NCBI GenBank assembly: GCA_021372245.1
Contig: JAJFUV010000287.1
Location: forward strand, 1-64,000
Reading direction: 5' to 3'
From: Terriglobales bacterium
GTDB lineage: Bacteria; Acidobacteriota; Terriglobia; Bryobacterales; Bryobacteraceae
Length of the DNA stretch: 64,000 bases
The translations under genes and the position numbers were made by a program. Below are positions 1-60,856 of the stretch, in pieces; within the stretch, counting starts at the first letter, position 1; each line of letters starts with the position of its first letter. Under the pieces are notes generated by a model that had not been told where the DNA came from, searched no databases, and was given only the letters and a program-made list of their open reading frames with translations.

Positions 1-100
1 AAAACACACGCTTCGCGTATGCCATAATGCGAGGTCCTTCGTGCAAATTCCTCTCCCGGATGGCGAGGATCTCTCCGACAATGTCTCTAGGCTTCGACAT
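1..100 (-). CDS. HEPN-domain protein, 5' fragment cut by window edge
   Basis: The first 33 codons of a gene read leftwards off the window. They are identical to the start of the HEPN-type gene at 58501-59253, so the product is presumably the same ribonuclease-like protein, but the part with the catalytic motif is not in the window. The start codon (complement 98-100) lies 12 bases inside the cassette boundary ACACAAC, as in the complete copy. It is either a second copy of the cassette or a contig end that shares a repeat. Confidence 0.6.
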   Translation of the reverse strand, partial: MSKPRDIVGEILAIRERNLHEGPRIMAYAKRVF

Positions 101-121
101 ATTAATATTTCACACAACGAT
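1..121. repeat. 121-base exact repeat of 59154-59274
   Basis: Bases 1-121 match 59154-59274 without a difference and then diverge. The match contains the first 33 codons of the HEPN gene, its short leader and the cassette boundary ACACAAC, and ends three bases after that boundary. The break falls where integron strand exchange would occur if cassettes point to the minus strand. The match starts at base 1, so its full length is unknown. Confidence 0.95.
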
Positions 122-214
122 CAAGGTCTGGCAACCCAGCCAGCGCCACAGATGCCCGAAAAACAGAAATAAACTCCCACGCTGGCAGGGGTTGCCAGCA
201 CCGACTTGTTATGC
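112..214 (-). other. attC-like recombination site 1
   Basis: This is an imperfect palindrome with outer 7-mers ACACAAC (112-118) and GTTATGC (208-214). The inner arms, near 130-153 and 179-198, pair through GGCAACC. On the minus strand the right arm reads AACAAGTCGGTGCTGGCAAC, the consensus shared by the other sites. GTTATGC reappears inverted as GCATAAC at 522-528, which marks the cassette 208-528. Confidence 0.85.
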
Positions 215-588
215 CTCTTAGAGTTACCATTGAATTGATCCAACGGGGGGACGAATCCCGCAAAAGAAAGCTCGCTGTCGTGGACATCGAGAACGACGGC
301 ACAGCTGGCGACATGCGCGGCGGTGGCGATTTTGGAAACTACCTCGTAAGGGCGTCCGCCGAAATGCAGGGCGGCTTTGATGAGTTCGCAGCCTTCACAA
401 TGGGGCCGCTTAAACGCGGCGACTACATCGACACGGCGATTGATATTCTGGCCGTGATGCACTCCGCGAGGATGCCGCGCCGTGGATTCATCACGGGCCG
501 CGTCGAAGTGGATAATTCTGGGCATAACACGTTATTAACCCACCCATGCCAAACTTCCGAAAACAACGCGATGAACGCAAAAGACTGA
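211..588 (+). CDS. Cassette gene, unknown function
   Basis: I do not recognise the family. The protein (125 aa) is soluble-looking, with a well-mixed acidic/basic composition over residues 1-105. The ATG is part of the cassette core GTTATGC, so there is almost no leader. The cassette ends at 528; the last 20 codons (from Asn-Thr-Leu-Leu) are read from the attI-like sequence and recur at the end of the unrelated cassette gene at 61616-61897, so they are unlikely to be functional. The opposite strand is also open (121-525), but its translation looks like a shadow. Confidence 0.6.
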   Translation: MPLRVTIELIQRGDESRKRKLAVVDIENDGTAGDMRGGGDFGNYLVRASAEMQGGFDEFAAFTMGPLKRGDYIDTAIDILAVMHSARMPRRGFITGRVEVDNSGHNTLLTHPCQTSENNAMNAKD

Positions 589-2707: not shown

Positions 2708-3217
2708 GTGAACAACCGTCCATGCCTCATGAAAACGAAACCGAAGCCACCGACCAAAAAAGCCCGAACGTCCACCAAAGCGCCGAAGCGGGAACGGAAG
2801 CTATCGGTGCGGCAGGAAAGGTTCTGCGAGTTGATTGCCGCGGGGAAAAGCGGGCCTGATGCCTGGCTGGAAGCGGGATACCAAGTGAAGAATCGAGACG
2901 TGGCAAAAGCCAATGCCTGCGAAGCCCTTACGAATCCTTACATAGAGGCCCGAGTGGCTGAACTTCGCAAGCCGCAGACCAAGAAAACCCTCTCATCGCG
3001 CGATCACAAGCGACTTTTGGCGATGCAACTGATGGAAGATCCCCGGCAGAAAACTCAAGACCGGCTTCGCGCCATGGAGATCGACGCCCGCCTTGCCGGC
3101 CAGTTCGAGCCCGACCGGACAGAGATCGAGGTGGGGCCGAAAACCCTGCTGTCCATCAAAGAGCGGGCCGCCCAGGTGGCCAGCGCACTGATCCGCAGCT
3201 ACGAAACCGATTCATGA
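2708..3217 (+). CDS. terS: Terminase small subunit
   Basis: 169 residues. It carries a basic Pro/Lys-rich N-terminus, then a helix-turn-helix part typical of Terminase_2-type small subunits (RQERFCELIAAGKSGPDAWL, near residues 36-55; later TNPYIEARVAEL). The protein recognises phage DNA for packaging. It directly precedes and overlaps terL (ATGA). The start is GTG at 2708; an in-frame ATG at 2729 would remove seven residues and is equally possible. Confidence 0.85.
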   Translation: MNNRPCLMKTKPKPPTKKARTSTKAPKRERKLSVRQERFCELIAAGKSGPDAWLEAGYQVKNRDVAKANACEALTNPYIEARVAELRKPQTKKTLSSRDHKRLLAMQLMEDPRQKTQDRLRAMEIDARLAGQFEPDRTEIEVGPKTLLSIKERAAQVASALIRSYETDS

Positions 3218-5040
3218 GCGCCGTTCCGGAAATCGTGCGGAAGTTCTCCGACATGCTGGCCACCAGCACCCAAGACAAACTTGAAGCGCTGGCCTACAAT
3301 TCGCCGGCGACTCACTTCTGCCTTTTCATGGAGATCAAGGACAAGAACGGCCGATGGATCAGGCCAAAGCCGAACGTCCTTCAACTCCGCATATCCGAAA
3401 CAATCGAAACGATCCGGGCGAAATGCCCAGGCACCCGGATCCGGATCATCGCCGTGAAGCCCCGCCGGGCCGGTCTGTCCACGTTCTCCCTGCATTGCGG
3501 CTACCACGAGGCCATGCGCCGGCCAATCGAGGGCATCACGATTGCCGACCGACGGGAGAACTCCCAAATGCTCATCGAGCGACTGGGCGAGTATTCCACG
3601 CATGACAGTTTCCCATGGGAAAACCGGGTGATCCGGAACGCGCAAGGCATCTTCGAGTGGGACAACGGCAGCCGGTGGACCATCGATTCCGCGGAAAACC
3701 CGGACGCTGGTGTGGGCGGCACCCGCCACTTCGGCCATTTCTCGGAGTGTTCGAAGTATCCGCAGACGGCCATCAAGAACGACGTGAAGACGATGACGGC
3801 CGCCCTGCCGTCGTTCTCGGGATCGGATACCATCTGCATCGCGGAGAGCACGCCAGAGGGGGCCGCAGGCTGGTTCTACGGCACGTTTGACGAGGAAGCG
3901 ATGTGGCTGGATGACTTCCTGAAACGCTACGCAGAGGGATTCCGCCCGGAACAGCAGTGGATCAAGGTGTTCGCCGCCTGGTGGGAGTTTGACGACTACC
4001 GCCGGCAAAACCCGGTCAGCGAGGCGGAGCGGGCGGAAATCGACGCCACGCTGTCCGACTTGGAGCGTGAAGAGCGGGAGAAGTTCGGCCTGACCTATGA
4101 GCAACTGGCGTGGCGGCGGGAAACCATCGCCTCCGAGTGCGATGGCGATCCGCGGATCTTCGCCTACTACTACCCGAGCGACCCGATTTCCTGCTGGATC
4201 GCCTCGGGCACGCCGCGCTTTGACATGCAGATCCTTGCCGACATGAAGAAGAAGGCCAAGGACGTGACGCCCGACACGGGCTATCTGGTCACCCAGCACA
4301 ATGGAGTGGTAACCTGGTCCCGCGATGAACGCGGGGCGGGGGAAATCCTGATGTTCGAGGAACCGCGCGAGGGCATGGCCTACATCGTGGCCTGCGACCC
4401 GGCCACCGGGGAAAGCCAGACAATGGGAGCGGACCCGGACAGGACATCGATCGCGGTGTGGCGGCAGAAGTTCTTCGATCCGGACCTGAAACTTGCCCGG
4501 TGCGCCAAGCTGGTGGCTCGAGTACGCCCGCCCTTCACCGGGGATGACGACATTGCCGCGGGCCACATCGCGCGCCTCTCGAAGTTCTACGGCGGGTGCA
4601 TGATCGCCCTGGAAGTGAACCAAGGGTTGCAAGTCCTGCGCTGCCTGCTGGACGCCAGCCTGCCGATTTACAAGCGCATCGTGTTCAGCCATAAGACCAA
4701 CGCGAAGGAAGAACAATACGGATTCAAACTCACCGACCAGAATCAGCGCCGGATGGTGATCGATGGCCTGGCCGCGGCGATCCGCAACCGGGAGATCGAG
4801 CCCGATTTCCACACGATCGAGGAACTGATGAAATTCGTGCGGAAGCCAAACGGCCGATACGAGGCGGCCAGCGGGGCTCACGATGACGACGTGATGCAAG
4901 CCGCGATGGCCTGGGAAGTCCTGCCCTCGGCCACGGTGTTCGCCCGGAAGGTGCGCCGGGACGTGGACCCGACCGACATGGCGACCGGCAACCGGAAACA
5001 GGGCTGGCGAGTAGTCTCGAACGTGCGCCGCGGGTGGTGA
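3214..5040 (+). CDS. terL: Terminase large subunit
   Basis: 608 residues; the packaging ATPase and nuclease. The ATPase P-loop variant is AVKPRRAGLST (about 80-90), followed by the typical phage GYHEAM helix. The nuclease half has YIVACDPATGES with a DPDRTSIAVW strand (from about 389), EVNQG near 467 and a final AHDDDVMQAAMAW near 556, which together give the acidic metal-binding set of the RNase-H-like fold. It overlaps terS by four bases. The gene after it is the giant ORF rather than the portal. Confidence 0.92.
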   Translation: MSAVPEIVRKFSDMLATSTQDKLEALAYNSPATHFCLFMEIKDKNGRWIRPKPNVLQLRISETIETIRAKCPGTRIRIIAVKPRRAGLSTFSLHCGYHEAMRRPIEGITIADRRENSQMLIERLGEYSTHDSFPWENRVIRNAQGIFEWDNGSRWTIDSAENPDAGVGGTRHFGHFSECSKYPQTAIKNDVKTMTAALPSFSGSDTICIAESTPEGAAGWFYGTFDEEAMWLDDFLKRYAEGFRPEQQWIKVFAAWWEFDDYRRQNPVSEAERAEIDATLSDLEREEREKFGLTYEQLAWRRETIASECDGDPRIFAYYYPSDPISCWIASGTPRFDMQILADMKKKAKDVTPDTGYLVTQHNGVVTWSRDERGAGEILMFEEPREGMAYIVACDPATGESQTMGADPDRTSIAVWRQKFFDPDLKLARCAKLVARVRPPFTGDDDIAAGHIARLSKFYGGCMIALEVNQGLQVLRCLLDASLPIYKRIVFSHKTNAKEEQYGFKLTDQNQRRMVIDGLAAAIRNREIEPDFHTIEELMKFVRKPNGRYEAASGAHDDDVMQAAMAWEVLPSATVFARKVRRDVDPTDMATGNRKQGWRVVSNVRRGW

Positions 5041-5089
5041 TGCTTACGCCGCGCGGAAGCATTACGCGGAAGTAGTTCTGCCCCCCACC

Positions 5090-5127
5090 CTGCGCCCGTT
5101 ACGGAAAGCGGGAAGTCGTGACAGGCT
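5090..5127 (+). promoter_or_regulatory. Phage promoter-like motif 2
   Basis: CTGCGCCCGT (5090-5099), 20 bases, GACAGGCT (5120-5127). The ATG of the giant gene lies 44 bases after the motif start, only six bases past the second box, so a leaderless or near-leaderless transcript is likely. Confidence 0.65.
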
Positions 5128-5133
5128 GCCGGC

Positions 5134-8100
5134 ATGTCTTCCCGATTCCGCCGCAGCGATCCCGAAGCCGAAGTTCAAGCCTACCTCGATGAAGTCCGCG
5201 CCGGGCGCGCTGGACAAGATCCGCGGGCGCAAACTCTGGCCCGTTCCCAATCCCCAAGAGCCCAAAAGACCGGCCAGCGCATGCTGGACGATCGAGCGGA
5301 CGCCAACCTCCGGCAGATCGAGGACGACCAGCGCGCCGCCGATCAAGCCGCGGAGGATGCCGCCAAGGCTCAGGAACAGGCCGCCAAGGACGCCGCGAAA
5401 GCCATGGAGGACGAGCGCAAGCGCAACGTGCGCGCCATGGCGGCCCAGGGTGCCGTGGTCGAGACGGACGTGGAGAGCGGCAAGCGGACGATCGCCACGC
5501 ATGCGGATGGTGCGCCGAAGTTCGAGGCTGGCCCCCTCGGGCGCGTCGAGCCCGTGGCCGAAGTGCGCCCCACCTTGGTGGACGGGGAAACCGGTGAGAA
5601 GCGCACGGTGCCAAACCTCGACATCATGATGGGCGGCGGTGCCGGATCGGACGCCATCGGCGCGACCGGATCGGAGAAACAAACCGTGTTTGGGCAGCAG
5701 GTGCGGGATGACCGTGGCCGGGTTTCCATCGTGGAGCCGAAGATCGAGACCGACAAGGACACCGGCCGGCAGACCTTCGACCAGAAGAACCCGGTGACCG
5801 GGAAAACGGAAACGCAGACGGTCGGCTACGATTGGGACGCCCGCGAGAAAGCCGCCCGTGCCGCCAAGATCGATGCCGACACGCAGGCGGTGGCGCTTGA
5901 AATCAACGCCCTTGACCAGCAGCGCGCACAGTTCGAGCCCCGTTGGCAGCCGGTGAAGGCGGAATACCTCAAGGCTAAGAGCGAGTTGGAATCACTCCCC
6001 TCCCCGCTGATTCAGCGCGGTTCCACCTGGGTGAAGGTGGACGAGCGCACCGGCAAGGAATCGCTGGCCACGCCGCAAGAAATCGCCTACCAAAAGAAGG
6101 TCCGCGAGCAGGCCCAAGCCCGATTCGAGCGTGCCAAGGCTGCGTATGAGCCGCTGGCCGGACAAAACGAGACGCTGACCAAGGCGGAGCGCGATGCGAC
6201 CGCCCGCCGGCTCCAAGTGGGCGAGGAAAAGATCCGCCTCGAAGCCGGACTGCCCGACAAGGACGCGGAAACACTCACGCGAGCGCTGGCCGTGCAGACG
6301 GAAGCCGTGCCGGATCCGGAGGCGGAAGCGGTAAAGCAAGCCGTGGCACCACCGGCCGCCCCTGCCGCGCCAACCAGTGGCCAAGCTGCCGCGCCGCCGG
6401 CAAAGCCACTGGTCCCGAAGGACGCGCTCAACGCCGACACCTTCGCCGCGGCATTCTCCGGCATCGTGAAGCCTGAAAGCCTCACGCTCGGGCTGTCCGG
6501 TGACGGATACCGGATGATCCAGCGCAACGGCACCACGATCGGCAGCATCGAGGATTCCGGCGGCGCTCCGGTGGTGGTCCTCAACGCCGGCCTGAACGAA
6601 GACCTGCGCGCCGTGGCCGCCCTTGGGGGCACCAAAGGCGTGCCGGTGTATCTGGCCGATGGCAACCGTCAGCCGCTCGCCAAGGAAGCCGCGTGGGCAA
6701 CGCAGGCGATCCAGCAGGCCCAACAGGCGGAACAAGCCGCGGGTTACTCGTTCACCGACCGCATGAACGCGCGGGAAGCGGCGCTGCAACTGGCCGGTGC
6801 CGACCTGCCGACGATCAACCGCAAGCTGCGTTCCGGCGAGATTTCCATGCAGGTGGCCGAAACACTGGCCAAAACGCTGCACGGCGAGACGTTCCAAGTG
6901 GCCGATCCCCTCGCCCCGGAGTCCTTCCAAGGCTGGCAGGCGGAGAATCCCGACAAGGCGGAAGCGTGGAGCAAGGCGCAAGCCTCGCGCGACATCCAAG
7001 GAATGAACGCTGTCAAATCGGCGTTCATTTCCGATTGGTATGCCAAGAACCAGCACAAGCCCGGCGTCACCTGGTCGATGATGCAGGCCGCGCGCAAGGC
7101 TGCCGCAGTGACCGGGACGGCCGGCGACCGTGCGGCCGATGGCGTGAAGACGCTCGGCGGCACCCTCGTGGACGCTGGCGGCTCCATGATTGGCCTGATG
7201 GCCGCCTATCCCACCCTTGCCGGCATGGGCGCTGCGGTGATGGCGCAAGACGTGTTCGGGAGCGGCTCTGACGGTGACCTCGGCGTGGCGTATCGGGACA
7301 TGCTCGAAGCCCGCGGCCGCGCGAACAAGAACTTCGTCCGCGGACTGGAGACCAATCGGCAGAAGTGGTTCACCGGCGAGGGCAAGAAAGCCACGGGGAA
7401 CCTACAAGCCGCCCTATTCGACTTCCGCGCCGCGGTGGCCACCCGCGACGTGTATCCGGACGGCATCGCGGATCCCCGCTATCAGGCCAAGTTCAACAAG
7501 GCGCTTGGCAAGGTGACCGATGCAGCTCACGCCCTGCACTCGCTCAACCTGGAAGACGGGTGGGCGATGACCCGTGATGACGTGGACCCGAACAAGGACC
7601 GGGTGCTTGGCGCTTCCCTGGCCAACTACATCGAGACCGGCGATCCGGAGGCATTCCAGCAGTTCCAGCGCCGTCTGCTTCTCGACAAGGGCAGCCGCGA
7701 GGCGGAAGGATGGAATCAGGACTTGGTGGCCGGGCAGGGCCGATTCGCCGCGGCGGTCATCGGTGGTGTGGCGGCCAATGACTTCGAAAGCGTGATCGAG
7801 ATTGCATCGAACCTCGCCACCGCGGGAGTTGCCAAGGCGATCCAGACCGGAGGGAAGATGGTTTCCGCCTCGAAGTTGGCCGGTGCCGGGCGCGTGGCGC
7901 GCTTCGGGCAGCAAGTGGCCAAGGACTTCCACAAGCTCGGCATGGTGGCCGACACGCTGGCGAAGCCGGCGAGCAAAGGCGGGAAGATCCTCAACCAGTC
8001 GGTGAAGCTGGGGAAAGCGACATTGGCGCAAGGTCTCAGCGAGGGAGCGGAAGGCGGCGTGGCGGAACTCGGAAACCCGGAAGCCACGGGTGCCAGTGTT

Positions 8101-11100
8101 CTTGAGGCTGCCGCCATCGAGGGACTGGCTGGGATCGTGATGGGTCCGATCATGTCCGGCCCCACCATGGCCGCGGCACAATCCCGCCAGAACTTCGACA
8201 TCGCCGCCCAGGCGCAAAAGCTGGTCGATGCCTACAACAAGACCGGCGCGAACGATCCGGATTTCAAGCCGATCACCCGCGATCAGGCGATTGTGGCCAT
8301 GGAAATGGCACAGAACCCGGCGCGCAAGGAAGCGCTCGACCGCCTCGAAGCGGCCAAGGTGGAACTCGAACTGGCCAACAACGAATTGGCCGGCACCGGC
8401 GCAAAGCTCGCCAGCGTGCGCCGCGAGGGGCAGGAAGCCGCGGCAGCCGTCCCCGGCGACCAGAACGCCGACACCACCGCTCGCGCGGATGCGCTCAAGG
8501 CATGGCAGGAGGACAACGCCCGCCAAGAGCAAGCCGCCCAGGCTGGGAAGCAAAACGCCGCCTCTCGCTACTCGAAGGCGCTTGCCGCCTACACGTCGGC
8601 ATTCCGTGATGTCGCCAACATTCAGGGATCGGCCATGGAAATCGCGGCGTCCACCGCCGGCATGAGTCCCGCGGAGCGCGCCCAGGTGATCGGGCTGGCC
8701 AAGGTGGCATTCGGCAAAGCTGACACGCTCACCAGCACCGAGCGGAGCGCCATCGCGGGCAAGACCACGATCGAGGGGCTGCCCTACTTCGAGACGACCG
8801 CCAGCGGCACCGAAGTGTTGACGGACGCCGGCCGGGCCGACATCCAGCGCCTATTCCCGGTTCTCGGTGGAAAGATCGCCACCCCGCAAAGCCTCGCGCT
8901 GTTCGAGGCTGCCAGACAATCACCCGCAGCCACGGGCGCGCCGACAGCATCGCTACCTGCCGGACAGGGGGGCGCGCAAGCGCCCTCCACACCCTCACCA
9001 ACCACCGCACCCAATGGGCAAAACACGCAAGGACCAACCGGACAACAAACCGCTGCCACGACTGCACAACCCGCACCCGCCAACGCGAACGCACCGGGTG
9101 GAACTGTTCGAGATGGAGCCGGACAGGCCGACCCCGCAAATGGAGCCGGAGAACAGGCCGCGCCGTCGCCGGTAAGCGGAAGCGCCGCGGCCATGGATGC
9201 CGCCGAATACGCCGCGCTCCGGGCTCAAGACCCATCCTTGCCCGACATTCCCGCGGTGGTGGCTGCCGCCCGCGCCGCCGGCCAGCCGGTTTCCCCGTCG
9301 ATGGAAAAGGCTGCCGGACAAACCGTTTCCGGAAACGGACAACCGGTGTCCCAAACGGACCGGTTATCGCCTGCCCGCCAACTGGCGGAACAGATCAAAG
9401 CGCGCGTCGAGGCCGCCATGCCGTCGATGAAAGGCCGGATCGTGGTTTCCGAGGAAGCCAGCGGAGGGGGCGGCGCTGACCTGGTGATCGAGACCGGGCA
9501 AATTCGCCTCATGGTGCCGGATGTGGCGCGAGCGCTCGAAAAGCTCGGCGGCGACACCGCGGCGGCCATGGAGTCGCTGGAAAACATCGTCGCGCGGCAT
9601 GAAGTCGTTCACGTCGTCCAGACCGACCTGATTCGCGCGGAATGGGAAGCGGCCAACCGGCCCGGATCGTTCTCGGATTTCTTCATCCAGTGGTATGCCG
9701 ACCTCGCGCCGGAACTGCTGACCAAGGATGCGGTGAAGGCGGCGCGCACGCTCTACGGGGAAAATGCGTGGGATCGGATCCCAACCGATGGCCAGAAGAC
9801 TGCGGAGTTCGTGCGGATGCTGGTGGAAGCCAAGCTGGAAGGCGACACGTCGAAATTCTCGGAACTCTTCCGCGCGGTGAAGACCCGCGGTGCGAAGTCG
9901 AAGCTCGCCAAGCTGATGCAGGCGGCGATTGCAGCGCTCCGCAAGATGAAGCTCACCCCGGCGGCCGAAGCGCACGTTTCGCGCCTCGTGGAACTCCACC
10001 GGGAACTGACGGAAGGCGCTCCACAGGATACTGCGAATCCAGCAGAATCACCACAAGCGGCGGCAACTGGCCTGCGCGTCCAAGCCACCGGCAACACCGC
10101 CCGCATCTTCGACGGCGAAACCCTGCTTTGGGAAGGTCCGGCCGATCAGGCACAAGCGGAACTCGCCAGCCTCAAGGCCGCGCAATCCTCGCCCATGGTT
10201 CTCACCGGGGCCGCGATCAAAGCCGCCATCGAGCGATTCCCCAGGCTGCGCGGGAAACTCCGTGCCGACCTTGAGGCCGCCGCGGATGACGTGATCGACG
10301 CCATCGAGGCACTGCCTCCCGAAGAGCGCGCCGCCGCCGCGGAAAAGGCGATTGCCGACCGGATCAACCTGATTGCCGATCGGGAAGCCGAGCGCACCGG
10401 CAAGGCCCGCGAGGAAGTGATCGAGGGATTCCGCGCCGTGGCCGGCAAGCGCGCCGCCAAGCAGGCAGCCAGCATCGAGCAAGCGGTGATCGGCACCGAA
10501 GCACCGCAGGTGCCCGCCGGACGCCAAGAGCGCCGCGACACGCCCAATTCCGAAATGACGGTTGATGTCACGTCAACCTTCGTTGACCTCGATCAACTCA
10601 TCGGCTCGTCCGATCCCCTGTTCCCAGGTGGGGCGCTCCAACCGCGCAACCGCGCCAGCCAAGCCAGCGCCAACCAGCGGGAAGAAATGGTGCAGAACAT
10701 CCGCGACAAGGACGATCAGCACCGGCGATACCTCGAAGGGGCAACCACGGATTCCGGCCGGATCGTCGTCGCGCCGCTGTTCGCCGCGGACGGCACCCAC
10801 ATGACCAATGACGCGGGCAAGCCGCTGTTCTACGTCATTTCCGGCAACGGCAGGCGCAATGCGCTGCAAGAAGCCTCCGCGCGCAAGGTGGCCGGCAAGA
10901 TCGACAAGGGATTCCGCGAGACCGCCGCGGCCGAAGGCATCGACACCGAAGGGATGACGCTGCCGGTGCCCGTGTCCGTCTTCGTGCCCACCAGCGCCAA
11001 GGAGGCGATCGATCTGGCCGAATACTCCAACCGTGACGCGCAACTGTCCGTCTCGAACACCGAACAGGCCAACCGGGACGCCGCCAGCATCGAAAAGGCC

Positions 11101-14100
11101 GGGATTCTCAAGCTGTGGGAACCGGACGCCAGCGGAGACCCCGGCGCGGCATCCAACCGGGATTTCGTCCGCGCCTTCGCCCGCGCGGTCGGTGACGAGG
11201 GGATCGTGGACGGTCGCGGAAACCTCACCGAAGAAGGCGGAAAGCGGATCGAGCGGGCCATGGTGGCGATGCTGCTCGGCCCGGAACAAGCTGACCTACT
11301 GGACATCCTTTTCAACCAGTCCGGCACCTACGGGCTGCGCGCCATCCTTGGCGGGATCGCCTCGGAGACCGGATCACTGCTCAAGGTAGCGTCGGAAAAG
11401 CCCGATTTCGACCTGTCCCCGGTGTTGGCTGATGCGCTCCGCACCGCGGTTCAGGCCAAGGCGGCACTCGTGGCCGGCGAGATCCGCGACGTGGGCGAGT
11501 TCTTCGACCAAGGGAATCTCTTCGAGTCCACCGACAACAGCACGCCGGAGCGGCAACTTGCCCGCGCCCTGGTGGAAAGCCGCAGCCGGAAAGCCGTGCG
11601 CGAAATCCTCGGAGCCTACCGCCGCGGCGCGGAAGCCGTGGACACCGGCACCATGTCGATGTTTGCGGAGGCGGAGACCACCCGCGAGGATCTGATCTTG
11701 AAAGCCCTCGAAGCGCGACCCATCGAGCAAGTGGCCGCGGAAGTCGAAGCGGAGTTTGGCAGCAAGTCGGACCTCGCGCGCAAGCTCAACCTAGCCGTGG
11801 CCGGGGTGAAGAAGCTGGATGCCGGCCAACGGCGCGATTTTGTGGCCGCCATCGGCGCGGAAGTCGAGCGCCTGCGCGGCGGCATCTACTCCGCCGAAGA
11901 GTGGCAGCGCCTCAATCCGGACGCCCTCACGCCCAAGGCGGCGCTCTTCCAGCGCTTCTTGGACTCGCACACGCCGGAGACCATCCAAAGCGGCTTGAAC
12001 CGCCTGCTGTCCAAGCCCGCGCAAACGGTGCTGGCGTCGAGCGCTCTCGGTTCTCACCGGTTCTCCGAATATCTCGAAGCCGCCAAGTCTCTCCTGCGCG
12101 AGAAACTGCCGGCGGAGCCCGCGGGGCTCAAGGACGTGCCCAAGATTTCGATTTCCCCGGCAGAACTCGCCCGCCAAGTGGCCGGACTGACCAAGGACAC
12201 CATGCTTGGCATCGGCAATCGCCGCGCGGTCCTCGGGTCTTCGCCATTCGAGGATCCCCGCCTCACCGAAGTCTTTGGCGAGAACTACAAGGCCGACGAA
12301 TACGGGCTGCCTGCCATTCCGAAAACCCTGCCGGACGGTCACCCGCTTTTGCAGCAAACCGACAAGAAGGAGTTTGCGGAAATCGCGGAGAATCACCCGC
12401 TGGTCATTGGCATGGACCCGCGCAACGAACTGGTGCGGGATCTGCCGGAGGATCACCCGGCGCGCCTCGGTGGATTCCTCAAGCCGGGCAAAATGCCGCG
12501 CAAGCAGTTCCATGATGCGGTCATCAAGTTCTTCATGAGCCTCGGCACCCCTTTGCCGGACGGAGTTCGCCCGACCGTTTACGCCACCGGCGGCGGCGGT
12601 GGGGCCGGCAAGTCGAGTATCCTGAGATACCTCAAGGAACGCGGCGACCTGGACACCACCGGGGCGATCCCCGTCAACGCCGACGAAATCAAGAGCATGA
12701 TTCCCGAGTGGGATCTGTTCATCCAAGCCAAGGACGGCCGGGCCGCCGGCGTGGTTCACGAGGAATCCAGCATTCTCGCCAAGCGACTGGTGGAAACCAT
12801 CCTCAACAACGGCTGGCGCTACTCGTTCATCTACGATGCCACCTTGGCGAACACGGAGAAAGCCATTGGCATGTTCGGCAAATGGAGGAACAACGGGTAT
12901 TTCGTCCACCTGATCGGCGTGAGCATCGATCCGCGCGAGGCGATCATTCGCGCCATTCTCCGCGGCCGGAAATCATGGCGATGGGTGCCGGTCGAGGAAC
13001 TCACCAAAGCGCATGCAGGATTCAACCGCGGCGTGATGGCGCTGGCCAAGGCCGCCCATTTTGTAAACATCTTCGACAACACCCCGCCGAAGCCTCATGA
13101 AATTGCCAAAAAAATCGGGGACAAAGAGCAGATTTCTATTGTAAATCAGGAGTATTTTGGCAGGATTCAATCGCGTGAAAGACAAATCCAACCCCAATCG
13201 GATGGCCAATCTGAAACCCTTCCCGGCGGATTGGCGCGCCAAGATCCAGAAAGATCAGGACGCGACCGACCAAGCGGTGATCGAGCGGGCGCACAAGTCC
13301 AACCTCAAGGTCGATCCGCCGATCAAACGCTAGGTTCCTCCCCTGCCCCGGAACTCGACCTGTTCGGGGCCATCGAGGCGCAAATCACCGGCCCGCGCGC
13401 CAAGACCAAGCGCAATGCGCTGGCAGCCGCCAAGGCCCAGCCGGAAGGCAGCAAGGCCCGCGAGAACATCGGCAAGCGCGTGGCCGCGATCGAAGGGCTG
13501 GCCGACCTCGACCTGTTCGCCGCTGCCTCTGTCCGCAGCCTTGACGCCAAGCCGAAGAAGAGCGAGAGTGCGCCAGATGGAAGCGCTCCAAGACAGCCAG
13601 GCAATCCGCTCGATCCTCAGCTACATGGAGGACAGCCAGCCAAGGGCACTCGTGGCGCTGGCACAGTCGGGGGAAATCAAGACCTATTTGACTGGTCTGG
13701 CCGACCAGGTGCAGAAGCAGGCGGAACGTCTCGCCAACCAGCCGCATCCGATGTTCAAGGGACGGACGCTGGGCTACGAGGAAGCGGAGATGGAAGCGCT
13801 GCAACAAATCCTGACCTCGGAGGAAGAGGATCCGGACCCGGACGACCTGCGGAAAGCGGTGAAGGTGGCGGATCGGATTCGGGAAATGCTGGACGCGACG
13901 GCGGAAAACGCAGCCTGACGCAGCGCCAGCGGCCGAAAGCCGGCACGCCGGAGCGCAACTTCGAGATCACGCCCAACACGGTCCTTGCCGAAGGCGGCGC
14001 TGTTACCCGCATTCGCAACAACGTGGCGGCCATCGACCTGCTGCGCACGCTGGAACGCGAGGATCGCAACGCCACCGCGGAAGAAAAAGCCGTGCTGGCC

Positions 14101-17100
14101 AAGTTCGTTGGCTGGGGCGGCCTGCCGCAAGTCTTCGATGAAGAGAACGCCCGCAAGGTGGAGCAAGGCGAAGCCGAAACCCGCCGCGAGACTGCCCGGC
14201 GCTACGAAAGCTATGGCGCGCAATACGAGAACCTGCGCGCGTCCTACCGGGAACAGGCCGACGCCATCGACAAGTGGAACGAGAAATGGGGCGACCATTA
14301 CCGCAAGCTGCGTGAACTGCTCACCCCGGAAGAATGGGAAAGCGCCCGCGAGTCGATCATCAACGCGCACTACACCAGCCCCACGGTGATTTCCAGCATG
14401 TGGGACGCTGTGCGCCGCTTGGGATTCAAGGGCGGCAACGTGCTCGAACCGGCCGGCGGCATCGGTCACTTCTACGGGCTCATGCCGCAGGACATGATGG
14501 ACACATCCCGCCTGTTTGGCATCGAGTTGGACAGCGTTTCCGGCCGGATCATGGGCAAGCTTTACCCGGAAGCGGAAATGGAGATCACCGGGTTCCAAGA
14601 CAGCACGCTGCCGGACAACTCGCAGGATCTCGTCATTTCCAACGTGCCGTTCGCCAACATCAACGTCACCGACGAATGGCTGGCCGCCCAGCCGGACGCG
14701 CCGGCGTTCAACCTGCACAACTACTTCTTCGAGCGGGCGCTTCGCAAGACCCGTCCCGGCGGGCTGGTGGCATTCATCAGCACGGCCAACACGATGGACG
14801 CCCAAATCAAGCAGCGGAAGTGGCTGGCGGAGCGGTCGGACTTCATGGGGGCCATCCGCCTGCCGAACAATGCTTTCAAGGGCAACGCCAACACCGAAGT
14901 CGTCACCGACATCATTTTCCTGCGCAAGCCGGACGGGTCGCCCAATCCGATGGCCGCGGAACAGTGGACTTCCACCGAGGATGTGGCGCTCGACAACGGC
15001 GAGACCATCGACATCAACGAGTATTTCGCCCGCCACCCGGAAATGATCCTTGGTCGCCTGGCCAACGATGGCAGCATGTATGGCGGCAAGAAGGAAATGA
15101 CCGTCCACGGTTCCGGCGATCTGAAAGCGCAACTGGCCGAAGCAGTCGCCAAGTTGCCGGAGAACGTCATCGGCGGTGGTGAAGCGGTGGACATCGAGCG
15201 GGACAGCAAACAGGCCGCAGGAGCCAAGGATGGCGCATTCATCGAGGAAAACGGCAAGGTACGCATCAAGGGCGATCTTGACCCGGTGCCGACCAAGGAA
15301 CTCGGGCGCGTGCGCTCGTTCATCAAGCTGCGCGACACGCTCAATGAACTCTACCGCCTCGAAGCGGACCCCGCCGCCACCGACTCGCAGATTGCGGCCC
15401 AGCGGGCGGCGCTGAACCGGGCCTATGACGGCCACAAGGCGGTCTATGGCACGCTGCACGAGCGGGCCAACAAGAAGACCCTCGAAACGGACCCGGATTT
15501 CTACCGCACCCTTGGGCTGGAAGTGCCGCTTGAGAAAAAGGCGCTGCGCAAGCAGGAATACCGCAAGGCGGATGTGTTCTCGAAGCGCATCCTATCGCCG
15601 CGGGTGCCGCCGAAGTCGGCCGATTCCGTGGATGAGGCCGTCATCCATTCGTTCCGCTGGAAAGGGCGATTGGATGCTGGATACGTCGGCAAACTTCTCG
15701 GCATCCCGCTGGAAGCCGCGGAATCCCGCCTGCTGGAAACCACAGCCGCTTTCCGTGATCCAGCCAGCGGCCGGATCGAGCACGCCACCAATTACTTGGC
15801 CGGCAACGTGCGCCGCAAGCTGCGCGATGCCCAGCAAGCCGCCGCCGGTGATCCCGCCTACCAACGCAACGTCGAGGCGCTGGAACGGGTGATGCCGCCG
15901 CCGGTGCCGTGGAGCGACATCCATTTCAAGATGGGCTCCGCGTGGATTCCAGCCGATGTCTATGAACGATTCATGGCGGAAAAGCTCTTCAACGGCCGCC
16001 GCAATGCCCGCGTGCTCTATCACAAGGGGGTTGGTGATCTGATTGGGGATTCCTTCGAGGTTCAGCAAGGCGTCACCGGCTACTCCAACAGCGTGGATGT
16101 CCAGTGGGGCACGCCGCGCCTGAGCGCCACGCAGATCGTGGAATACGTCCTCAACCAGAAAGACCCGCGGGTGTATGACACCGTGGACAAGAAGCGTGTT
16201 TACAACCAGGCGGAAAGCGACAAGGCACGCGCCGCGGCGGAGCGCATGACGGAAGCCTTCCTTGAATGGGTGAGCGCTTCCCCGGAACTGCAAACCGACC
16301 TGCACCGGATCTACAACGAGTCGTTCAACTCCCATGTGGTCCCGCAATACGACGGCAGTTTCATGCAGTTGCCATGGGTGGCCAGTGACTTCGATCTCTA
16401 CCCGGACAAGAAACACGTCGTCTGGCGCGCGCTGCAAGAAGGCACGCTGCTGGTCGCGCACGGTGTCGGCGGCGGCAAGACCATCATCGGCACGGCCATT
16501 GCCATGGAATCGCGCCGCCTCGGGCTGGCCAAGAAACCGCTGATCGTGGTCCACAATGCCACGCTCGAACAGTTCGCCACCACCATTTCCACCATGGCAC
16601 CCACCGCCCGCGTGCTGGTGGCCCGCAAGGAGGATCTGGCCGGACCCAAGCGCAAGGAGTTCATGGGCCGTGTGCGCTCCGGGGATTGGGATGCCGTGGT
16701 GATGGCGCATTCCACCTATGACCTGATCCCGGATGATCCGGCATGGGAGCGAAAACAGACCGATGACCTGGTGAAAGAACTGGAGGACGCCATCCGCGAG
16801 CAAGACGTGGATCCGGATGCCGACCTGAAAAAGATCAAAGACCCCTCGGTCAAGGAACTGGTCAAGATGCGCCGCCGACTCAAGGACCGCATCGCCAACC
16901 TGCAAACCCGCCGCACCGATGACGTGTTGACCTTCCAGGAACTCGGCATCGATGCCCTGATCGTGGACGAGGTTCACCGCTACAAGAAACTGCCGTTCGT
17001 CACCCGTCAAAGCAACATTGCCGGCATCGACACCGGATTCTCGAAGCGCGGCAGTGCAATGCAGCTTCGCGCCAAGTGGGTGCAGGCGATCAACCAGGGC

Positions 17101-20100
17101 CGCGGCGTCTTCACCATGACCGGCACGCCAGTGACCAACACCGTGGGCGAGGCATGGAACATGGTGCGCCTCGTCCGGCCGGACTTGCTGCAAGAGTTCG
17201 GGGTGAAAACCTTCGACCGCTTTGTCTCGGTCTTCGGCAACATCACCCAGGGCGGTGAACTGCGGCCGAATGGCTCGTGGAAAGCCGTCACCCGCCTGAG
17301 CAAGTTCACGAACATTCCGGAATGGAATCGGTTTTGGGGACTGGCTGCCGACGTGAAGATGGGTGATGACATGCAAGTGAAGGGCCGGCCCAAGATCAAA
17401 GGTGGCAAGCCTGCCCTCACCGTGGTCGAGCGCACGCCAGGTGTGGGCGCGGTCATTGCGGAGATTTCCCGCGTGATCGATTCATACGACATGATGACCG
17501 GCCGGGAAAAGGCCATGAACCGGCATATCCCGCTGCTCACCTACGCCGCGGCGAGGATGGCGGCCATCGACATCCGCCTGATCAATCCGGACGCCGCCGA
17601 CGAGCCGACCAGCAAGGTCAACACCGCCCTCAAAAACGTGATGCGTCTCTACCACGAGACCACCGAGCACAAGGGAACGCAGGTGCTCTTTGCGGACTCG
17701 TATCGCCCGCTCAAGACGACCAAGCTGGACCTGAGCGCCGCGGAGTTCGACATGATCGCGGACGATGAGACCGCTCCCGCCAAGGATGACGAAGACGAGG
17801 GGTTCAACCTGTATCACGACATCCGCGAGAAACTGGTCGCCGCCGGCGTGCCACGCTCGGAAATCGCCATCATCACCGAGGCCAAGAACGACAAGGCGCG
17901 CGAAGCCATCTTCGCCAAGGTCAACTCCGGCGAGGTCCGGATCATCCTCGGCTCCACCGAAACGCTCGGCACCGGCGTGAACATGCAGCAACGCATGATC
18001 GCCGCCCACCATCTTGACGTGCCGTGGACGCCCGCGGGGCTCGAACAGCGGGACGGCCGCGTTTATCGCCAAGGCAACCTGTGGGCGGAACTCGGCCGCG
18101 AAATCGAGATCATGCGCTACGGCATGAAGGACACGCTCGACGCCGCCCTCTGGCAGAAGCTCGAAACCAAGGAGCGCTTCATCAAGCAGGCGGTTTCCGG
18201 CAAGATCAACGAGCGGGTGATCGAAGACGACGACGGACTGCTCAACTACATGGAGCAAAAGGCTGCGCTGTCCGGTCCGGATGGCATGCTCAAATTCACC
18301 CTGGATGAAAAGGTCCGCGGGCTGAAAAACGAGTGGCGCGCCCACCGCAACCGCCAGTTCGACCTGCAACGCACCGGCGATCTTGCCAGCCGCACCATTC
18401 AGTCCATCGATGATGCGCTGGCGGATGCCCGTCGCGTGGCCAAGGTGGCGGAGCCGCTGGCCAACGTCGATCCCATGGAAGTGGAATGGTCCGTCGAGGG
18501 CGGCAAGGCGCTGAAAGGCGAGGATGCCCGCGAGGCCATCGATGCCGCCATCAAGGAGCGCCGCAAGAAAGCTGGCGCGATCATGAACCCGGAAAGCGCG
18601 CCCACCATGCGCGAGCCCCTGCACGTCACGGCCAACGGTGTTCCGCTTGTGCTGCAAGTGGTGTCCATCACCGAGGACATCGCCCACGCCAACAACCCGG
18701 ATCTCCGCTGGCAATTCACTTGGGCACCCACGCTGGAGACCGCGATGAAGAATCCCGGACGGCACAGCCCGCACCCGCGGAGCCTCATGGGCGAGTCGGT
18801 GGCACTGGCAACCCGCTTGTTCACCCAGCCTGCATCCCTCGAAGCCAACCGCAGCCGGGCGCAAAGCGACATCGAAATGGTGGCCAAGGAAGGGGCAAAA
18901 CCGTTTGGCAAGGCGGTGGATTTCGCCCAGGCGCTGCTCGATCAGGCCAAGCTCTACAAGCGCATGGGCATCGCCAGCCCGGAGGCGCAAGACGTGTATC
19001 AGGCCGCTTTCGGCGCGGAGTGGGAAAGCCAACTGAAAGCCGCGGAGAATCCGGACACGCCGCCGCCCAGCGGTCCCCGCGCCGAAACCCCGGAGACCTA
19101 CCCCGGCAAAGGACTTGCGCCCGCCATGGCGACTTTGGGAAGCTCTGCGGGTCTTGACTCCCGTGGTAATCCTCAAGGCATCGACACCAACCAGCCCGGC
19201 GGGGCCAATATCGGTGACGCGGCCTCGCCGTCTTCCGTCGTCACTCCTGAAATGGATGCGGCGTATCTCGATGCGCTGGCAAATGGAAATTTGTATGAAG
19301 CTAACGCTATAATGTTGGAAGCCGCTGGCAAAGCTGGGGCTTTTTCGTGGGATGATGGAACCCCAAAGGTGCTTCTACACGGAACGGTGTATGAATACGA
19401 CGTTTCTGAGATAAACTTGGAAAATGCAGGTCAAGGGCATCCAGCAAGCACAGGAGAAAATCTGCTGTTTATGACGCTCGATGGCGGAGAGGCTGCAAAA
19501 TATGCCGGGTATGAGAATTTTAACGAATTGGAAGATCTTTATGACGCTTGGAATGACGGCCTTGCAGAAACGCAACCTTCGGAATTGAAAGAATACTACC
19601 AAGGCGAAGAAGGCAGAGTGTTTCCATTGTTCGTCTTTCCAAAAAAATTAAGAACTCTGCCAGGAAAAAATGGGAAATACAACTTCGTAAGATTGAACGG
19701 TCTAGCAGAAAAATTGATAAGCTCAGGAAGGGCTGATGCTATTTTGATGAAAGATACAGTTGTGACATACTTAGGGCAAAATCCGGCAGATCACATGGTT
19801 GTCGGAAATGTCAATTTAGTAAGATCCGCCGCAACTGTTTTAAGAGACGAATCCGGAAACATCATTCTGCTTTCCCAACGTTTTAACCAGTCCCCCGGGG
19901 CATCTTCCCCGGAGAGCATGTCGCTGGGAAGCTCCCCCACCCCCGACGCCGACCCGGTGCAAACATCTTTCGTCCGCGCCATCGCCACCGCCCGCCGCGA
20001 ACTCGACAAACGCCGCGCGGATCGCAACACCGTATCCATTCAATGGGAACTGGATGCAGACCGCTTGGCCGAAGACGGCGAAGAATATCACTACCCGTCA

Positions 20101-23100
20101 ATCACCTTGCCGGAAGATGATCGTTACATGGAAGAGTTCCTGCCGCTCGACCCAATCACGCGCGACGGCGACATGAAATTCTACTTTTCCGACAAGCCAA
20201 CGGAGTTTGACACCCTATCAGAAGCGCAGGATTACGCCAACAACATCATCATCGAAGCACTCAAGGAAAAAGCTCCGAGCTCGATTTTCGGCAGTGATTC
20301 AGACGCGCAAAACATCGCCCGCCAAATCTTTGATTCCTTCCCATCACTACCATCCATCACATCGCCCTGGCAACCCAGCAAATGGGGATCGTGGTATCTC
20401 GAATTTAAAGACGAAGAAGGCACCATTCAAAAACTCTCTATCCGCGACCACAGCGCCACGCGCGCCGACATGGGGCTGCCAGACAAATCCTTCTTCGTTT
20501 CCAAACAGTGGAACCCGGAAGAAGTCGGTAACGCGCTTTTTGCCGCTCTTGAATACATAAACGAAAAATCCCCGGCGCGGGCGGCGGAAGCCGCAGATAT
20601 GCCGGATGGCAGGGAAACCGCGTCGGGGACGGGCCAAACTGGCGTTCTTTGGTCTTCCCCGTCAAGTGATTCCGACCCGGTACAAATCGCCTTGGCCAAA
20701 ATGCCGCCGATCTACCGGGAAGTCTTCGAGGCGATCGAGGGCGGCGCAAGCGTCACGGAAGTGACCGGGCGCTTCAACATCACGCCGCGCGCGGTTGACA
20801 ACATCCTCAACGCCGTACGGAGCCGGATCGCCACGGCGAGCGCCGCATCCAAGCCCTTCGGACTGGAACCGCGCACCGTGGGCGGAAAGATGGTCGGCGG
20901 CGGTCGTCCGGATCTGGCGCTTGGGGCCAACCCGCAAGTCGCCGCGGTGGATCAAATCCGCAACGAGTCAGGCATTCCCGGTGTGCGCGGATGGGCGGAA
21001 GTCTTTGCCGAAGCGGATGCCATGCTCGCCAAGGACTACGACGGCACCTATGAGGCGCTTCTGAGCAAGGCGCGCGACCTGCAACCCATGACGGACACGG
21101 AGATTGCCGCGGCCAAGCGCATCATTTCCCGCGAGACTCTGGCCGGGAAGATCCAGACCACGGCGGAGCGGGTGAATCTCGGCATGCTGATCCACGGATA
21201 CCGGGACATCGGCACCGAAACCGCCCGCAGCCTGGCCATCCGCCGCGATCCGCACTTGTCGCCGGCAGAACGGCACGCGCGATTCATCGCGGAAGCGCTC
21301 TTCACCCCGGACCCCGCCACCCGCGCCCGCATGCGAAAGAAAAACGCCAGCGCCGAAGAAATTCTCGCTGGCTGGATGAAGCGGGTGGACAGCATCGAAA
21401 AGGAACTTCTCGCCCAAGGCATCGACATCCGCGCCGCCCTCGAAGAGTTCAACGACCAGCAGGAAGCCCGGAAACAGTCGGAAGCGGAAAGCCCGCGCGC
21501 CGCGGCCGTGATCGATGAGCAGATCCGCAAGCTCAACCGCCGCGAGAAAGCCGTGATCGAGGCGATCCGTTCCGGCGCACTGGTCACCAAGGCCGCATTC
21601 ATCACCGGCCTGTCCGTCGAGGAAGTGAAGGCCATCTATTCCCGGTTCCTCACCGACATCCGCAGCGCCATGGCGGAAAGCGCCAAGCGCTACCTTGCCG
21701 GCGCTCTCGGTTCCTCGCCCATGGACACGATGGCGGAAATCCTGATGGATCTGTCCCTGCCGCCCTTGGAAATGATCGATGACAGCCAGCCCGGCTTTGT
21801 CGATCGCCGCGGGGAGAAACCGCGCAAGCCACGGAAACCGCGCGCCAAGAAGGAAGGCGAGACGGAAACCAAGAAGCCGAAAAAACCCGCCGCACCCAAG
21901 CCGGAAGGCGTGGAACTCACCCCGGAGCAACAGGCCCGACTCGATGAGGATTGGCAGCGATTCCTTGATTCGGACCTGTCCACCTGGAAGGCATACTACA
22001 AGGGCGAGCGCAACCGCTGGCCGTGGACGAAAGAGCAACAGCTTCGCTTCGAGGACAAGGCGCAGGCCATCAAGAAAGACTGGTCAAAACAGAAAGACCT
22101 CTTCACGGAGCGCGAGGAAGTTTCCACCACCACCGGCACCTTCGACATTCACGATCCGGTCAGCATGCTCAAGGTCGCGGAAGCGTTCATGGTGGCGCGA
22201 GGCGGCAAGGTCGATGCGATCATGGAATACTGGCGCATGTCGATTCTGAGCGGCATGCAAACCCATGTCGTAAACATCGGATCCACCGCACTGAACATCG
22301 GTTTCAACCTCGCCCCGCGCCGGGCGCTCGAAGCCATGGTCAACACGCTCATCCGCTCGGACAAATCCGCCACCTTTGGCGAGTTCAAGCCGATGGTCCG
22401 CGAAGTCACCAACGCCTGGCGCTTGGCGGCCCGCAACGCCGTGCGCTCGTGGCAACTCGACTGGCTGGGAAGCCGCGTGTTCGACCAATACGCCAACGCC
22501 GAAGTGCTACAACTCGACTTCACCGGCACCGCTCAGGCGGATTTCATCCCGCCGGCTCTCGGCGGCAAGTTCGGCAAGGTGATGCGCTCCATCTCCTTCC
22601 GCGCACTGCAAACCGCCGATACGTTCCTCAAGTCGTTCTATAGCCAACTCGAAGCCGCGGCCCAAGCCCATCGAATTGCCGCCGTGGAAGAGAAGCTGAA
22701 AGGCGCGGCCTACGATGCCCGCCTGGCGGAACTCATGATTCCCGGCAGCGTGGCATGGGTCCGCGCCTTGGACGGTGCCAAGGTGGCAGCCTTCCAGAAA
22801 GACATGGCCTTCGAGGGCATGGGGCTGAAAGCCATGGCCGACAAAGCCAAGGAAACGCCGGTTCTCGACATCATGGTGGATTCGATGATCTACGTGCTGC
22901 AAGTGTCGCGGAATCTGCCGATCATCGGCCGCCTCTCCACGTTCTTCATGCCGTTCCTCGTCACCCCGGCGAACATCAACAAGCAGGCCATCGGCTACAC
23001 GCCCATGGGTGCCTTCGTCAACCTGGTGGACGCCACCCGAGCGCTCAAGCGCCGGATCTTCAAGGGCGACATGAGCAAGGCCGAAGCCATCAAGGAAGCC

Positions 23101-42314: not shown

Positions 42315-43361
42315 TCACCGGAAGAACGCCTTCCCCTGCGCCTCGGTGACCGCCCGCCGGTAGTGCCGGAAGAGCGTACTCGAGCCCGCCGCGTGGCCAA
42401 GCACTGCCTTGGTCGCATCCTCCCCGTAGGCCGCAAGGTGGTGGCTGGCGAAAGTGTGCCGCAGCGCATCCTGCAAATGGCCAATGCCGGCATCCTTCCG
42501 GATCCTCGCCCAGCGCCGCTTCCAGTTGGCAGGAATCACCGTGCCTTCCTTCGGGTGACCTTTCAGCGCGCGGCGCAACACCGGCCGGATGGGAATGATC
42601 CGGTCGGCCCCGGTCTTGCTCGCGTCCGGCGGGACGTAGATTTCCGTCTTGCTGACGTTCTCCCAATCCAAGCGCGCGATTTCCCCGCTTTCCGCGTCCG
42701 GGCGGATCCCGGCATAGAGAAGCAGCGCCACCGCCCGGCGCTCATCATCGCCCTGGCAGGCGGCAAGAACGGCCGTTTGCTGGTCTTCGGCAAGAATCTG
42801 AATCTCGGTGGTCTTCCGGTGGCGCTCCCGGAAGCCAAGCACGGCCAGAACGTAGCGGGCGCGCATGTCGATCGTGGAGCGCTTGATCACCCGCTCTTCC
42901 TGCAAGGCTTCCTCGATCCGCTGCCGGTCGATCGCTCCGCAGGCCACCGGCATCAGCGACGGCACCCACCGCGGCACCCGCTCCATGTCGGACCGGTAGC
43001 GGTCCCGCCAGTGTTCCTCACCCCAAAGCATCGCTCTGGCGTAGCGGTCGCGGAACGTCTCTTTGCTGGCCGTAGTGGCGATTCTGGCGACAGCCAAGCG
43101 GGCCGCCTCGACCAGCGACACCCCGGAGCCTTCGAGGATGCGCGCCGCTTCGGCGGCCTGGTGGGCGAGAGATAGCGGGATCATCGCCCCGCGCACCCCG
43201 GCGGTGTGCTGCTGCCGCAGGGTGGCGGCATACTTCTCTGCCGCGGTCTTGCCGGGGAAATACTTCCGGCGACGCTTGCCGGTGGCGGTCATGCCGGCAG
43301 GGATCGAGACCATCCACCCGCGGGGCGTCTCGACAGCGTGGAACTCGGGAACTCTGGCCAT
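42315..43361 (-). CDS. int: Phage integrase, tyrosine recombinase
   Basis: 348 residues from the ATG at 43361. The catalytic set is visible: Arg in LYAGIRPDAESGEIARLDW, LRHTFASHHL, LGHAAGSSTLFRHYRR. The N-terminal RKYFPGKTAAEKYAATL resembles an arm-binding domain. There is no extra block between the Lys strand and LRHTF, so it is not an integron-type IntI. A longer frame to 43436 would overlap the arm-type sites, so the shorter start is preferred. It lies next to the tRNA-derived attP core. Confidence 0.9.
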   Translation of the reverse strand: MARVPEFHAVETPRGWMVSIPAGMTATGKRRRKYFPGKTAAEKYAATLRQQHTAGVRGAMIPLSLAHQAAEAARILEGSGVSLVEAARLAVARIATTASKETFRDRYARAMLWGEEHWRDRYRSDMERVPRWVPSLMPVACGAIDRQRIEEALQEERVIKRSTIDMRARYVLAVLGFRERHRKTTEIQILAEDQQTAVLAACQGDDERRAVALLLYAGIRPDAESGEIARLDWENVSKTEIYVPPDASKTGADRIIPIRPVLRRALKGHPKEGTVIPANWKRRWARIRKDAGIGHLQDALRHTFASHHLAAYGEDATKAVLGHAAGSSTLFRHYRRAVTEAQGKAFFR

Positions 43362-43368
43362 GGGAGTG

Positions 43369-43564
43369 TCGCCACAATCGCCACTTGGCGGAATGTCGGC
43401 TTGGTTTTCCTTGTGTCCAAATGTTCGGAAAATCAAGGAAAATGGAGCCGGCTGAGGGACTCGAACCCTCGAACCTGCTGATTACAAATCCGCAAACACG
43501 CTTTGATTGTCAACGTGTTGCGCTGGCGCTTTGCAGAATCGCCACCATATCGCCACTTGGCGGA
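43369..43564. other. Phage attachment site attP (tRNA-Thr 3' half) with arm sites
   Basis: Core 43443-43490 reads, on the minus strand, as the 3' half of a tRNA: anticodon loop TTTGTAA (TGT, Thr), T arm GAGGGTTCGAGTCCCTC, acceptor AGCCGGC and TCCA. The 5' half of a tRNA is missing. Matching repeats flank it: TCGCCACAATCGCCACTTGG (from 43369) and TCGCCACCATATCGCCACTTGG (from 43539, given here as motif TCGCCAC twice), both ending GGCGGA. These are probable integrase arm sites. Integration into a host tRNA-Thr gene is inferred. Confidence 0.8.
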
Positions 43565-58046: not shown

Positions 58047-58083
58047 GACGCTGGTATCCGTTGCGTCTCACGACTTGTTAGCC
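57983..58083 (-). other. attC-like site 3
   Basis: TGAGAAC (57983) and GTTAGCC (58077). The inner arms ACGGATACCAGCGTC and GACGCTGGTATCCGT pair perfectly over 15 bases; the minus-strand right arm has one extra A (GCAACGG against GCACGG). Confidence 0.85.
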
Positions 58084-58093
58084 TCTTCTATTT

Positions 58094-58441: not shown

Positions 58442-58496
58442 GTGATCGTCGAAACAGAACGGCTGATAGGGGTTGTCATGGCGCGACTTGTTGTGT
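58369..58496 (-). other. attC-like site 4
   Basis: GGCTAAC (58369) and GTTGTGT (58490). The arms ATGCACCCCTACCAGC and GCTGATAGGGGTTGTCAT pair with one bulge. The loop is similar in sequence to that of site 5 (shared GATCRTCGAAACAGAACGGC), so these two attC sites are recent relatives. Confidence 0.85.
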
Positions 58497-58500
58497 GTCT

Positions 58501-59253: not shown

Positions 59254-59274
59254 ATTAATATTTCACACAACGAT
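59154..59274. repeat. Second copy of the 121-base repeat at window start
   Basis: Identical to bases 1-121. It covers the start of the HEPN gene and the cassette boundary, and ends three bases into attC-like site 5. Confidence 0.95.
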
Positions 59275-59391: not shown

Positions 59392-59411
59392 TTCTTGTTT
59401 CTTTGTGCGAC

Positions 59412-59948: not shown

Positions 59949-59959
59949 CTTAATTTTCT

Positions 59960-60849: not shown

Positions 60850-60856
60850 GGTTGCC

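Follow-up and report, generated by a model that had tools for sequence, protein, structure and literature searches.

Integrons are gene-capture platforms of bacteria. In a screen of 10,705 NCBI genomes, Qi et al. (2023; PMC9892861) recovered 21 phages with integron parts, and the integrase IntI1 used five of the six phage attC sites that were tested. Like the locus described here, these phage integrons and CALINs place attC arrays in tailed phages, some with an integrase and some without one; those described in sections 3.1 and 3.3 of that paper resemble or come from host integrons (Vibrio, Shewanella), and their integrases group with bacterial IntI in the first of our two trees. Shewanella prophage M16-3 (MZ568829, PMC9892861) is alike in having, within one phage, an attI at the start of its integron array and another at a separate CALIN, but its integrase is of host type, matching the S. 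oneidensis enzyme at 95.3% identity and the integrase of L010, a relative of our phage, at 33%. A sedentary chromosomal integron (PMC2727003) shares the cassette boundaries, the pairing of the R boxes and an L'' arm with an unpaired base; our locus stands apart by its phage location, its defence-like SieB and HEPN genes and its cassette ORFs on both strands. Virus Rctr41k (KX853513; L080) encodes an IntI-like protein annotated xerD, with 39% identity, and has five attC-like matches, but in an inverted layout, with the matches downstream of the integrase gene and on the opposite strand (4680–9977). Phage integrons are thus already published (Qi 2023); what is apparently unreported is the presence in phages of the integrase group described below, of which we found no report in the open-access literature searched, most subscription papers and all bioRxiv preprints lying outside that scope.

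The window, the whole stretch of 64,000 nucleotides analysed here, comprises bases 1–64000 of contig C69 (64,767 bp; record L003), one of 368 contigs in a 6.36-Mb assembly with 5.28% contamination, and its base 1 is the genuine start of that contig. The contig carries genes typical of a tailed phage, namely terminase, portal, DnaB-type helicase, exonuclease and tyrosine integrase, and it meets all three criteria (terminase, portal and integrase) that define it as a temperate tailed phage. The small and large terminase subunits (phrog_51 and phrog_2) lie at 2708–5040 on the plus strand. The phage tyrosine integrase (42315–43436, minus strand; Phage_integrase, 1.6e-6) is not IntI-like and has no match to the IntI of L010. 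Two YqaJ-type exonucleases are encoded at 50298–51062 and at 62151–62843 (plus strand), with YqaJ matches of 3.6e-24 and 1.9e-23 for the pair. An ORF of 6341 codons runs uninterrupted through 5134–24159 (plus strand) and has matches in the relatives G001, L009, L011 and L012. Near the other end, a radical SAM gene occupies the stretch from 63310 to the contig end at 64767, which truncates it; its product has a weak B12-binding match and no relative in viral_contigs. Nothing in an Rfam scan of the window reaches gathering score, and ARAGORN detects no tRNA in it.

A cassette array with nine cassettes, delimited by box pairing, arm alignments and a structural scan, occupies 57665–61836 on the minus strand; we refer to it as context 1. 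Its attC-like sites lie at 57659–57750, 57983–58083, 58369–58496, 59265–59391, 59960–60083, 60334–60466, 60762–60849, 61024–61124 and 61419–61505. The R cores were chosen by eye as ten CTTGTT sites, one at 205 and nine in 57741–61496, leaving out four further CTTGTT on the plus strand. The seven bases from GTT have a complementary downstream partner ending in AAC that is perfect in nine of the ten and has one mismatch in the tenth. In the clear attC cases, the arms between the boxes pair except for two bases, which are separated by five or six pairs and in every case belong to the arm next to GTT of the plus strand. The structural scan of the window returns five sites with at most one mismatch and seven with at most two, all on the plus strand, compared with 0, 0 and 0, and 0, 3 and 0, respectively, in three shuffles; the array alone accounts for four or six of these sites, and the remaining one is at 208. 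The R cores at 57744, 60077, 60460 and 61118 fit the attC geometry less well or are different. The site around the third of these (60334–60466) differs from its neighbours in being a bulge-free, perfect inverted repeat of 32 bases. Because the scanner is tuned to this one attC geometry, an absence of matches elsewhere means little: its two-bulge rule returns no site from the phage integrons published for Vibrio and Shewanella, and it has no independent positive control.

By these features, the array meets the CALIN criterion of two or more neighbouring attC sites, with nine in 57659–61505 by box pairing, and that of complementary R boxes with an asymmetric L'' arm containing unpaired bases; some sites deviate. 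The criterion for a complete integron, an integrase gene beside attI, is not met, as no IntI-type integrase is present in C69, and none scores over the cut-off in the whole assembly.

The block at positions 1–121 is repeated inside this array at 59154–59274 (minus strand). The two copies are 121/121 identical and are the only two occurrences in the 6.36-Mb assembly; a perfect repeat of this length arising by chance is all but excluded. The array copy falls within a complete HEPN cassette (58375–59270, minus strand; box pair GTTGTGT/ACACAAC), which has its own attC at 58369–58496, and extends four bases past the cassette end. The copy at the contig start is the 5′ end of the same cassette in a second context (1–117, minus strand; start codon at 98–100), identified by the 121/121 identity and the ACACAAC box, with the contig beginning inside the cassette. 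The ACACAAC box is present at both junctions (112–118 and 59265–59271), and the first mismatch follows at base 122, a C, against a G at 59275. Beyond this point the neighbours change. In context 1 the HEPN cassette is adjacent to a SieB cassette (59271–59965, minus strand; box pair GTTCGCT/AGCGAAC), and in context 2 to cassette orfB (118–527), which has a perfect GTTATGC/GCATAAC box pair, an ORF at 211–588 (plus strand) and an ORF on the opposite strand too. The attC of orfB, attC_B (112–214, minus strand), has R boxes ACACAAC and GTTATGC and a two-bulge L box with one mismatch, and is matched by the scanner. The attC hairpins past the two repeat copies are unlike, apart from a shared CGAT after the AA of the box. 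These boxes, bulges, boundaries and the identical block are direct observations.

The position of the cut within the box is inferred. In the geometry described by Bouvier et al. (2009; PMC2727003), the bottom-strand R' box is cleaved between its C and A, and an unpaired base lies in L''. Together with the bulged arm, this makes the plus strand of the window the recombining strand and AA|C the cut, that is, 117|118 and 59270|59271, an assignment drawn from the bulge polarity and from the integrase position in relatives. With the cut at AA|C, identity outlasts it by the constant C plus GAT (119–121), the sole excess; of the nine array boxes, one more (60762) is likewise followed by GAT. An alternative cassette boundary on the GTT side (~209), which would place the break at 121 inside an attC, was overturned by the bulge polarity and by the integrase position in L010. 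The original prediction, made from sequence alone, held for the identity of 1–121 with 59154–59274, to which no third copy in the assembly needs to be added, for divergence three bases after the ACACAAC core, and for the difference of the attC arm beyond, where the hairpins are distinct and only CGAT is common. Its cut between G and TT has to be corrected to AA|C, and its claim that the break falls at the integron cut site held once the strand was assigned.

Both contexts end in the same way on the other side. An attI-like array end is found at 61837–61854 in context 1 and at 528–545 in context 2, both on the minus strand, and 526–641 is 91% identical to 61835–61950, with the identity beginning at the AAC box. 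Each array is then followed by a gene on the plus strand, X (546–911) or X′ (61855–62193), the latter a paralogue or allele of the former with 54% protein identity over 111 aa. By synteny, X occupies the place that intI has in the relative G001. The attI-like ends are identified as a repeat only; any activity in recombination is putative.

We propose that the repeat block represents the side of an integron-type cassette on which its gene starts, the cassette being made up of a HEPN-like gene with its attC and residing in a temperate tailed phage. This cassette would exist in two array contexts, with either the SieB cassette or orfB as its neighbour on the attI side, the change of neighbour having been produced by IntI-type site-specific recombination at AA|C of the folded attC strand. 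The integrase would be supplied in trans by a phage or by the host, since C69 carries none. Base 1 would mark the place where assembly halted inside the second occurrence of the cassette. We consider this explanation likely as a whole; the role of IntI as the agent and a replicating phage population as the source are inferred. Counting against it are the lack of an IntI-type integrase in the contig and of any above the cut-off in the assembly, the identity that continues three bases past the constant C, a 121/122 junction known from the assembly alone, without read evidence, the narrow tuning of the scanner, and the weak case for HEPN.

One rival is that the second context is a chimeric assembly or another artefact with no biology behind it. 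The match does begin at contig base 1, and the assembly has the contamination given above. Against this, the break is at a cassette boundary on both sides and is followed in each case by a different well-formed attC; with about ten boundaries in 64.8 kb, simple arithmetic makes a random break at one of them unlikely. Contig ends inside duplicated cassettes also recur in other phages (L114 and L103), and L113 shows a full duplication. We regard an artefact as very unlikely. The repeat length itself gives little support to a plain assembler overlap. Among 49 usable ends of 40 fetched contigs (ends reading N were excluded, and 9/40 contigs had >100 N), a single overlapping pair was found, with 141 bases at both ends; as this is the only other measurable contig overlap, 121 is not simply the assembler overlap length. 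That 121 arose from a lower assembler k step is possible, and no more than a guess.

A second rival needs no integrase and invokes homologous recombination, or template switching, between attC arms that resemble each other. Some arms are indeed similar, as between 58373–58475 and 59269–59371 (76% identical). The attC sites at the HEPN junction, however, have only CGAT in common after the AA of the box, and the same stop at AAC in C69, L048, L086, L113 and L103 would not be expected. This explanation, too, appears very unlikely.

The recurrence of this stop comes from an all-against-all comparison of 56 sequences with inspection of repeat ends, the rest of the repeat list remaining uninspected. 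Cassette duplications ending in AAC are present in four related phage lineages. In L048 a whole 290-bp cassette occurs twice with 100% identity, and its second copy lies beside a second attI-like copy (38/38), between a phrog_2 terminase gene and a portal-like gene, the latter read by eye. The attI-like copies of L048 (13313–13350 and 7951–7988) contain an inverted repeat and a T run and look terminator-like. L086 has a duplicated block of 254 bp (99.6%) that ends in AAC, the second copy being beside the integrase. L113 has a full duplication of a 305-bp cassette, again ending in AAC, and the related contig L114 ends inside the same cassette, its block likewise stopping at AAC. L103 begins inside a duplicated cassette, and its block ends in AAC. 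The suggestion in the original prediction that a contig end falls inside the repeat therefore held, with the ends of L114 and L103 likewise inside cassettes. Repeats in L081, L088 and L125 were rejected as cassette duplications, as their ends are off the cassette boundaries or they show attC likeness only.

Within the preferred reading of an integron-type cassette in two contexts, two arrangements of the DNA remain undecided between. In the first, 122–59274 forms a phage circle of 59,153 bp whose only HEPN cassette adjoins orfB; the assembler would have continued beyond the closing point, and the tail would come from a variant or another phage in which HEPN adjoins SieB. We give this arrangement as much chance of being right as wrong. 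In its favour, G001 is a complete 59,510-bp circle with the same gene order, and the tail (59275–64767) adds the second YqaJ exonuclease and has no end overlap to anything in the assembly. Against it, good coverage would be expected at the HEPN–orfB junction, where the contig instead begins, with an overlap of 121 bases as opposed to the 141 at another junction; the tail does not stand out in tetranucleotide composition (6.48 versus a control of 5.58, sd 0.81); and L048 shows that one phage contig can carry both contexts. If true, circular closure would leave each genome with one HEPN cassette, its neighbour being either of two within the population. In the second arrangement, which is possible, one phage genome has two arrays, each ending in an attI-like site and a copy of X, and the rest of the second array lies in the gap from 64767 to 1. 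The 91% identity of the two attI-like ends over 116 bases, the two attI-like copies of L048 with one cassette at both places, and the attI of phage M16-3 at both its integron and its CALIN (PMC9892861) favour it, whereas it requires two YqaJ exonucleases in one genome, and G001 has one array in one place. Tetranucleotide composition does not discriminate between the two. The predicted presence of the HEPN cassette twice in the "population or genome" is worded so that it spans both readings; that both copies are on one DNA molecule is not shown.

Relatives of the phage do carry the integrase that C69 lacks. Four viral contigs are terminase relatives. One of them, G001 (L010), shares 62% TerL identity with the window and the gene order w57150–array–w913–terminase, and its 127-bp terminal overlap marks its 59,510 bp as a complete circular genome. 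Its one array ends beside an IntI-like integrase, which scores 260.3 bits against TIGR02249, just under the curated cut-off of 265 and the best of the 12 families listed. Close relatives of this integrase, at 78–86% identity, are found in L045–L048, which like G001 have an integron integrase gene. Two bacteria also encode such relatives, Luteolibacter marinus (82%) and Haloferula luteola (78%), the row of the latter being identical to L047. An alignment search yields 48 viral contigs with related integrases, some of them near-copies of one another. The scanner finds 95 attC matches in 34 of the 48, with 92/95 on the integrase strand and 91/95 upstream and co-oriented, and none in shuffles of the same contigs (one each). 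Where at least 1.5 kb is available upstream, 31 of 40 contigs have an upstream match. A terminase is recognized by phrog_2 in 19/48, a profile that misses others such as that of G001. Exact patterns taken from the HEPN junction and the attI-like site match nothing in viral_contigs. On the bacterial side, an integron integrase (E 1e-40) is absent from the phage's own genome G000 and from the listed family and class genomes and is present in 100/297 genomes of the phylum. The phage may be misbinned, or may meet integrases elsewhere.

We placed these integrases in two trees. In the first, for which TIGR02249 served to choose the bacterial rows, the 43 viral rows form a clean separate group (99/98), with the integrase of the relatives of the window phage in the viral group and those of P1 (IntI1), M16-3 and Vibrio p16 on the bacterial side; L104, L122–L125, L036 and L040 were left out, their match being too short or missing. 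In the second, whose bacterial rows were chosen for their resemblance to the phage integrase, support of 100/100 is retained by a clade uniting 22 viral rows with Luteolibacter, whereas the clean viral split appears in only 30% of bootstrap trees; rows that were identical, the bacterial rows used earlier, the host recombinase and one of the 30 bacterial rows newly fetched are not part of this tree. Owing to that drop, we claim a viral clade and not a single viral origin.

A bolder reading, for and against which we see similar weight, is that tailed phages of Verrucomicrobiota and other hosts own an integron lineage, with a virus-specific integrase, attI and arrays at a fixed place. Cassettes, including superinfection-exclusion genes, would be copied and reshuffled between co-replicating or co-infecting phages, giving many array versions per population, and the 121-base repeat would be one frozen exchange. 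The published phage integron cases look largely like host-derived fragments; an integrase group maintained by phages, with arrays that look functional, would, if true, make phages a home of cassette exchange and not its passengers, and would link array shuffling to phage–phage competition through SieB and HEPN. The relatives also offer complete circular phage genomes of small size, which would allow a direct measurement of cassette movement.

The evidence for assigning the HEPN-like protein (250 aa; 58501–59253, minus strand) is weak. Its PF18735 match falls below threshold (E 0.19, 12 bits versus a curated cut-off of 28.4); it meets the RX4-6H criterion through an RX4H motif (RHxxxH, here RHVFAH) that is retained in all four aligned proteins, and a single-sequence structure model has a pLDDT of 38.5, too low for fold evidence. 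No relatives of the protein are found in viral_contigs or among INPHARED phages, a search across 396 genomes of the phylum returns its own genome only, and plasmids give three weak matches. Ten proteins, including eight from cassette ORFs, have no match in PADLOC. On the opposite strand, a tRNA-like sequence (58513–58596, plus strand) with matching acceptor and T arms overlaps the HEPN gene at its 3′ end; it is negative in ARAGORN and has only a sub-threshold tRNA-like match in Rfam. Antisense tRNA may account for the last residues encoded by the HEPN ORF.

The gene of the neighbouring cassette (ORF 59412–59948) has a Pfam SieB match of 4.9e-30; SieB is a superinfection-exclusion family. We infer that the array serves the phage as a store of exchangeable genes, some of them directed against rival phages. 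Both ORFs are in the canonical cassette direction, and two further cassette ORFs, both on the plus strand, are reversed: one at 60382–60762 (phrog_839, 7.6e-19) and one at 60653–61060 with a DnaJ-like zinc motif (DnaJ_CXXCXGXG, 1.3e-6), which has a relative in the L048 array (53% over 87 aa). The bacterial control for cassette direction amounts to one cassette only and is too short for a claim on viral versus bacterial cassettes. Across 49 viral cassettes, after six near-duplicate records were dropped, 20 ORFs point toward attI, 13 point away and 16 are undecided.
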